Below are positions 142-337 of a stretch of DNA of 64,000 nt, in pieces. The translations under genes and the position numbers were made by a program. Numbering within the stretch: the first letter of the stretch is position 1; every line of letters starts with the position of its first letter. Below the pieces are notes generated by a model, which was not told the DNA's origin, made no database searches, and was given only the letters and a program-made list of their open reading frames with translations. This stretch comes from Clostridia bacterium (GTDB taxonomy: Bacteria; Bacillota; Clostridia; Oscillospirales; CAG-382): NCBI GenBank assembly GCA_017436675.1, contig JAFSCS010000029.1, forward strand, positions 1 through 64,000, given 5' to 3'.

Positions 142-172
142 AAAAATACTCTCCTTTTGATAAAATAAAAAA

Positions 173-206
173 CCGCAAGGGTGTTCTACCCCTGCGGTGA
201 TGCGCA
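173..206 (-). terminator. Leader terminator/attenuator hairpin
   Basis: On the minus strand CCGCAGGGG and CCCTTGCGG form a 9-bp stem with one G-U pair and a 7-nt loop, followed directly by six T residues. It lies between the promoter and the lipoprotein start, so it must be read through for expression. Its 5' arm is also perfectly complementary over 12 nt (CTACCCCTGCGG with CCGCAGGGGTAG) to codons 12-16 of the leader ORF, which gives a mutually exclusive antiterminator. Confidence 0.8.
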
Positions 207-216
207 AAAAAGTGGT

Positions 217-276
217 TTAAAAGGATACTCCCGCAGGGGTAGTCATATTTTCTTGTTCAAGTTCTAACTGTCCCAT
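217..276 (-). CDS. 19-codon leader peptide of an attenuator
   Basis: A short ORF encodes MGQLELEQENMTTPAGVSF and is preceded by TGAGG at a workable distance. It lies about 25 nt behind a near-consensus promoter and ends just before a terminator hairpin. The codons for Thr-Thr-Pro-Ala-Gly contain the sequence that can pair with the 5' arm of the terminator. A ribosome translating to the end would cover that segment and let the terminator form. A ribosome slowed over the Gln/Leu/Glu-rich first half would leave it free to form the antiterminator. The mechanism is inferred from complementarity; what stalls the ribosome is unknown. Confidence 0.65.
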   Translation of the reverse strand: MGQLELEQENMTTPAGVSF

Positions 277-308
277 TGGTGCATACCTCACTTTCTTATT
301 CTGTTTTC

Positions 309-337
309 ATTATATAGTACAAATATTTATTTGTCAA
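309..337 (-). promoter_or_regulatory. Sigma-A-type promoter of the leader/lipoprotein transcript
   Basis: The minus strand has TTGACA, a 17-bp spacer and TATAAT, a perfect match to the housekeeping consensus. Transcription would begin near 302, leaving a leader of about 160 nt that contains the 19-codon ORF and the terminator. Confidence 0.85.

Follow-up and report, generated by a model that had tools for sequence, protein, structure and literature searches.

Elements of the Leader

We analyzed the first 64,000 nucleotides (nt) of contig JAFSCS010000029.1 of a Clostridia bacterium (GenBank assembly GCA_017436675.1), a stretch referred to below as the window, and in particular the leader that lies on its minus strand at positions 337–142, in front of a lipoprotein gene. 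The coordinates of this copy are given as window positions. The leader is headed by a sigma-A promoter (337–309), in which the −35 hexamer TTGACA (337–332) and the −10 hexamer TATAAT (314–309) are separated by a 17-nt spacer and match the consensus at 12 of 12 positions; transcription would start near position 302. An open reading frame (ORF) of 19 codons, MGQLELEQENMTTPAGVSF, extends from the ATG at 276 to a TAA stop codon ending at 217, and is preceded by a Shine-Dalgarno (SD) sequence (291–285, with GAGGT at 289–285), the GAGG of which lies 9 nt 5′ of the ATG. The lipoprotein gene has a ribosome binding site of its own, AAAAGGAGAG, at 158–149, and its 5′ end, MKKLKLIITFILLVSLFLGVVACTPNEESKAESSADVSEDVSVTVSD..., starts with the ATG at 141–139 and runs to position 1, where it is truncated by the contig end, leaving only 47 residues within the window.

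Between the promoter and the lipoprotein gene, two mutually exclusive pairings can form. Segment B (CTACCCCTGCGG, 242–231), located in codons 12–16 of the ORF, is a perfect 12-bp complement of segment C (CCGCAGGGGTAG, 197–186), B being the 5′ arm of the antiterminator. Segment C also pairs, as the 5′ arm, with segment D to form the 11-bp stem (198–172) of an intrinsic terminator (198–167), which ends in a run of six T residues (172–167). An additional segment, A (289–265), extends from the SD sequence, which it overlaps, to codon 4, and is predicted to be an anti-antiterminator partner of B. An initial annotation of this DNA had described a consensus promoter, a 19-codon ORF with a ribosome binding site, and two exclusive pairings, and had remarked that the leader contains no run of one amino acid; all of these are found as described. 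The locus carries the two features by which attenuators of this kind are recognized, namely a short ORF with a ribosome binding site between the promoter and the structural gene, kept in six copies (see below), and an antiterminator and an intrinsic terminator that exclude each other, with one antiterminator arm inside the ORF.

The overlap of the two pairings is not due to chance. A scan for three-segment antiterminator/terminator overlaps whose antiterminator arm measures 10 bp or more gives no case in 120 dinucleotide-shuffled 64-kb strands used as controls, while the same scan of the real sequence returns the six leader copies and, elsewhere in the window, one intergenic palindrome unrelated to them. 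The latter (TATTTTGCCGATATCGGCAAAATA, 41956–41886, minus strand) has an extra half copy, ATATCGGCAAAATA, about 30 nt upstream, and is scored as an attenuator-like overlap. Folding of the whole leader yields a z value of −3.2.

Six Copies in One Genome

When the genome that contains the window (1.5 Mb, 54% complete) is searched at the DNA level, five further full copies of the leader, 92–94% identical, are found on contigs C23, C20, C42, C4, and C43. The six loci are dispersed over six contigs, and each has a promoter to itself. The −35 and −10 hexamers, the SD sequence, the ORF, and segments B, C, and D are conserved across all six; it is therefore unlikely that the ORF is accidental. The hexamers keep their 17-nt spacing in 6/6 copies, with the variants TTGACT in C43 and TATACT in C20. 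The SD sequence is kept as GAGGTAYG in every copy, and so is the terminator, from which one T is deleted in C43. In C4 and C43, the promoter spacer and all of the upstream DNA are fully diverged, and conservation sets in near the transcription start, which indicates that the shared unit is the RNA leader.

Each of the six copies lies upstream of a gene from a single lipoprotein family (MKKLKLIISFILLVSLFLGVVACTPDEESKADVSE...), whose signal peptides are near-identical and whose bodies are diverged (58% for one pair, ~30–38% otherwise). At C4, a membrane-protein gene stands between the leader and the lipoprotein gene, and at C43 the leader is followed by two tandem lipoprotein genes. A search of this genome with the signal peptide gives seven strong matches at these six loci, the others being weak. 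No Pfam family could be assigned to the lipoprotein bodies, which also lack a solved relative and have no homologue at the level of the body among 63 genomes of the bacterial family. Positions 1–141 of the window and 7553–7693 of L012, in the second lipoprotein gene of C43, differ by one mismatch over 141 bases. The window contig begins inside its lipoprotein gene, and we attribute the assembly break at this point to the near-repeat. Immediately 5′ of the C42 leader lies a gene of the same strand (L010 7100–7768, minus, G000:C42) with a weak match to P-II nitrogen regulators; its occurrence alongside the Gln and Glu codons of the leader may be a coincidence.

The same DNA search also gives a short additional match, corresponding to a shortened and diverged seventh copy, GAGGTACGGGTCATTGGGAGCGTTAGATATTGAAAACGTGAATATCACTACCCTTGCGGTTTTTT, on contig C32 (L013 7380–7180, minus; G000:C32:47179–47379). 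This copy retains the SD sequence, the start of the ORF, and segment D. Its register matches that of the leader ORF, but it skips from B to D, as would result from loss of the segment from B to C between two similar sequences, CTACCCCTGCGG and ACCCTTGCGG. It lies ~180 nt before a DUF6259 gene and is followed by a second consensus-like promoter, TTGACA-17-TATAAT.

Relatives of the leader were sought at several levels. None is found by blastn in 149 relatives, in 63 genomes of the family with a 26-base degenerate pattern allowing 3 mismatches, among 394 genomes of the order with a 21-base pattern, or in 295 genomes with a covariance model. Two pattern matches at the order level lie inside phosphoglycerate kinase genes (GNGPMGVFE) and were rejected, as were the covariance matches outside the genome, which are generic terminator hairpins or, once, the start of an ABC-transporter ATPase gene, with no such leader ORF. 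Exact patterns were also run on viral and species-genome contigs, and the leader has no match in phage, plasmid, or viral collections. The single species-genome match, in a Lachnospiraceae genome (L058 5660–5560, minus), is a 19-codon ORF, MGTLEEPIQVAPQYEMGRA followed by a stop codon, with a strong SD sequence and a start resembling that of the leader (GGTACGGTCCAATGGGAACGTTAGAA), located ~500 nt before a V-type ATPase operon. We do not claim it as a homologue, as by our estimate ~0.5 such pattern matches are expected by chance. As regards an origin from an insertion sequence (IS) or prophage, there is no phage or plasmid match and the copies share the 5′ end of the lipoprotein gene; transposases were not searched for in the flanks.

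An analogous lipoprotein family is present in a sister genus, with a common signal peptide of its own and its own, unrelated upstream regions, which shows that amplified lipoprotein families with common 5′ ends recur in this bacterial family, the attenuator being known from the present genome only. In one of the sister-genus loci (L080 2440–2270, minus, G026:C20), an upstream ORF, MVSDISQYTNTKVNVLQPCPMGRP followed by a stop codon, ends ~20 nt before the lipoprotein ATG, and the 5′ part of MVSDISQYTNTKVNVLQPCPMGRP, AAAGGCGGCGGTACCCATGGTTTCGGATATCTCACAG, is found again upstream of other genes that appear to encode secreted proteins (L089, L090).

Constraint on the Leader ORF

The distribution of variable sites across the six copies differs sharply along the shared block. 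The leader ORF has 1 variable site in 60, compared to 15 in 69 for the codons of the signal peptide in the six genes linked to a leader (Fisher p = 0.0004) and to 5 in 20 for the spacer from the stop codon to segment C (p = 0.003). The signal-peptide changes number 3, 1, and 11 at the first, second, and third codon positions, while the ORF has none at the third. As 11 of the 15 signal-peptide changes are at third positions, there has been time enough for silent change. This points to a constraint on the RNA sequence of the leader ORF, through pairing, codon identity, or both, with the caveat of gene conversion. Some conversion is in fact likely, because the variants are mosaic among the copies: the promoter spacer groups C29 with C42, the post-stop spacer C42 with C4 and C43, and the terminator loop C42 with C23.

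Modelled Ribosome Positions

To follow the effect of a ribosome on the fold, base-pair probabilities of the leader were calculated for each codon, with the ribosome footprint, taken as 15 nt on the 5′ side and 16 nt on the 3′ side of the first base of the P-site codon, kept unpaired. In five of the six copies, a ribosome at codons 1–7 is predicted to give mostly the antiterminator, with probabilities of 0.61–1.00 (the exception being 0.17 for codon 2 in C23), and one at codons 8–20 the terminator, with 0.90–1.00, the boundary between the two zones being sharp. With the ribosome at codon 1, antitermination is predicted in 6/6 copies including that of the window (0.61–0.98). For the full leader at equilibrium and without a ribosome, the calculations favor the terminator (0.84–1.00), aided by A:B pairing. 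This anti-antiterminator is predicted in all six copies, and its pairing register in the window copy differs from that in the other five.

Proposed Mechanism and Alternatives

The promoter, the ORF, the exclusive B:C and C:D pairings, the recurrence in six copies, and the constraint on the ORF region can all be read in the DNA, and from them we infer that the ORF is translated, that the two folds are switched, and that A pairs with B. The interpretation that we favor, with a probability of about 0.62, is that of a transcription attenuator that depends on the ribosome and controls a dispersed regulon of lipoprotein genes. A strong constitutive promoter would produce a leader of ~130 nt carrying the 19-codon ORF. 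A ribosome held on the first seven codons or so would leave B free to pair with the emerging C, and the polymerase would read through into the lipoprotein gene or operon. A ribosome at codon 8 or beyond would cover B, so that C:D forms and ends transcription. If no ribosome is present, B may be sequestered by pairing with A, which would likewise lead to termination. One such leader before six loci of one lipoprotein family would constitute the dispersed regulon. The attenuator proposed in the initial annotation is in this respect partly supported, by the architecture and by the six copies, and its control by the ribosome is predicted from computed ensembles.

Several observations weigh against this interpretation. 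The near-identity of six copies within a single genome could stem from recent duplication or from gene conversion, and not from selection. The C32 copy is without segment C and does not show retention of the peptide through synonymous change: relative to it, 9 codons are changed, all by non-synonymous or start-codon changes that are spread over the codon positions. The idea of selection at the peptide level was therefore abandoned, as C32 lends no support to peptide conservation. Just after C has been made, the calculations favor B:C even without a ribosome, from which some read-through is predicted when translation fails. The A:B pairing is no better than that of shuffled 5′ regions, 91–209 of 300 of which do as well in five copies; since they often give the same no-ribosome outcome, A:B is only a prediction, and the step in which the leader would be off without a ribosome is weak. 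Finally, the window copy, which is changed at several positions of A and at one of the spacer, is calculated to terminate at equilibrium at nearly all ribosome positions, codon 1 excepted, and may be less inducible than its sister copies.

In one alternative, the leader is a by-product of a lipoprotein family of the vsp/vpma kind, with recombination or conversion keeping the 5′ regions alike, the terminator merely dampening expression, and the ORF being incidental. The near-identical block does extend through the signal peptide before the bodies diverge to ~30%, the variants in the two spacers and the terminator loop are mosaic among the copies, and the vpma and vsp genes of Mycoplasma likewise have a common 5′ untranslated region (UTR) and signal peptide (PMC2268961). 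Conversion alone, however, leaves unexplained both the conservation of the ORF above that of the codons just downstream and the overlap of antiterminator and terminator, and the loci are dispersed with a promoter each. We consider this alternative unlikely. Overlapping hairpins are typical also of attenuators controlled by proteins and ligands, and a trans factor (an RNA-binding protein, a small RNA, or a ligand) might switch between B:C and C:D with the ORF having no role. Against this, none of the analyses points to such a factor, the leader has no covariance-model match in Rfam at the gathering score, the 5′ arm is part of an ORF that has a good SD sequence, and the coding part of that ORF is the most conserved stretch, which makes such a factor very improbable.

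If the switch depends on the ribosome, the best candidates for the inducing condition are blocked initiation or slow decoding of codons 2–8 (G Q L(UUA) E L E Q). The initial annotation had preferred a drug or general translation stress. A drug is one of two live options, starvation being equally possible, and the slowing of ribosomes over the whole ORF would be insufficient according to the model: because the antiterminator is predicted only for ribosomes over codons 1–7, a general slowdown would induce only if ribosomes were held there. A sensor of antibiotics or initiation stalls, as in vmlR or toiL, would be switched on by drugs that hold the ribosome at the start codon. It would account for the codon-1 result in all six copies, and start-codon stalling is documented for tetracycline and retapamulin (PMC12121999) and for lincosamide-type drugs at vmlR (PMC9226507). 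The genes downstream are, however, orphan lipoproteins and not resistance genes, the macrolide stall motif R/K-X-R/K is absent since the leader peptide has neither Lys nor Arg, and pauses at codons 12–15 (Thr/Pro/Ala) would fall where termination is predicted; a sensor of this type is possible, with a fairly low probability. A classical sensor of amino acid or charged-tRNA starvation would rely instead on hungry codons among codons 2–8, which read GGA CAG TTA GAA CTT GAA CAA and comprise UUA and CUU for Leu, two Glu, two Gln, and Gly. According to the model, these are the codons that wait in the A site while the P site is at codons 1–7. The TTA codon, which makes up 2% of the Leu codons (2.3 per 1000) in the long genes of the window, is kept in 7/7 copies, and its role as the sensing codon is suggestive only, as leader DNA rich in AT can easily contain a TTA by chance. 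With no run of a single amino acid and no biosynthetic genes downstream, starvation sensing of this kind appears doubtful.

Relation to Known Systems

In the amino acid attenuators with his, ilv, and leu leader peptides, the position of the ribosome in the leader ORF decides between antiterminator and terminator. The present leader would follow the same principle, as far as the calculations go, but it has no codon run and no biosynthetic gene downstream. Neither the run of pathway control codons expected of an amino acid attenuator nor the downstream resistance gene expected of an antibiotic-resistance attenuator is found, MGQLELEQENMTTPAGVSF containing a single rare UUA and the downstream genes encoding lipoproteins. 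The leader would accordingly belong to the ribosome-mediated transcription attenuators in terms of mechanism, and to neither the amino acid nor the resistance type in terms of target or codon content.

The layout appears closest, by analogy, to that of the vmlR leader of Bacillus subtilis, in which a 3-codon upstream ORF (uORF), MIN, controls an ABCF resistance protein and for which attenuation is supported by experiment (PMC9226507). Both have a uORF in a 5′ structure, and in both an early ribosome stall gives, or here would give, the antiterminator and prevents intrinsic termination; the anti-antiterminator/antiterminator/terminator layout of vmlR (PMC9226507) would also be shared, A:B being only predicted here. 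Unlike vmlR, the present ORF has 19 codons and precedes a lipoprotein family in six copies. The uORF toiL, which controls topAI in E. coli, operates at the level of translation initiation and of Rho, and stalls anywhere in toiL induce (PMC12121999). It resembles the present case in having a non-resistance target under a uORF that is read by stalled ribosomes, start-codon stalls being inducing there and predicted to be so here; it differs in that the present leader has an intrinsic terminator and only early stall positions should induce. By analogy with vmlR (PMC9226507) and toiL (PMC12121999), inhibitors that act at the start codon are predicted to be inducers.

Two further systems share the repetition of a 5′ region. 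The vsp/vpma lipoprotein genes of Mycoplasma form clusters, and a site-specific recombinase switches them at sites within their 5′ UTR (PMC2268961). The common 5′ UTR and signal peptide and the diverged mature part of these genes are also found here; in contrast, the present loci are dispersed, each with a promoter and an attenuator, and do not show the clustering with recombinase switching, recombinases not having been searched for exhaustively. Mobile, IS-derived attenuators provide a precedent for the repetition of an attenuator within one genome (Naville and Gautheret 2010, PMC2965389). As in those cases, one attenuator sequence is repeated before several genes of one genome, with the difference that here the leader travels with the 5′ end of the lipoprotein coding sequence.

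Implications

Leader-peptide attenuators are known mainly for amino acid operons and ribosome-protection genes. It is conceivable, though we would put it forward with reserve, that in this uncultured organism the sensor was copied along with the signal peptide, giving a regulon of diversifying surface lipoproteins through which the surface coat would be changed as a unit when initiation or early elongation falters; a terminated leader of ~130 nt made from six strong promoters could, in addition, be an abundant trans-acting RNA. If the attenuator is what we propose, its copying over a fast-evolving family of surface lipoproteins would tie the status of the ribosome to the composition of the cell surface, and the regulon would have grown by duplication of the leader and signal peptide while the mature proteins diversified.
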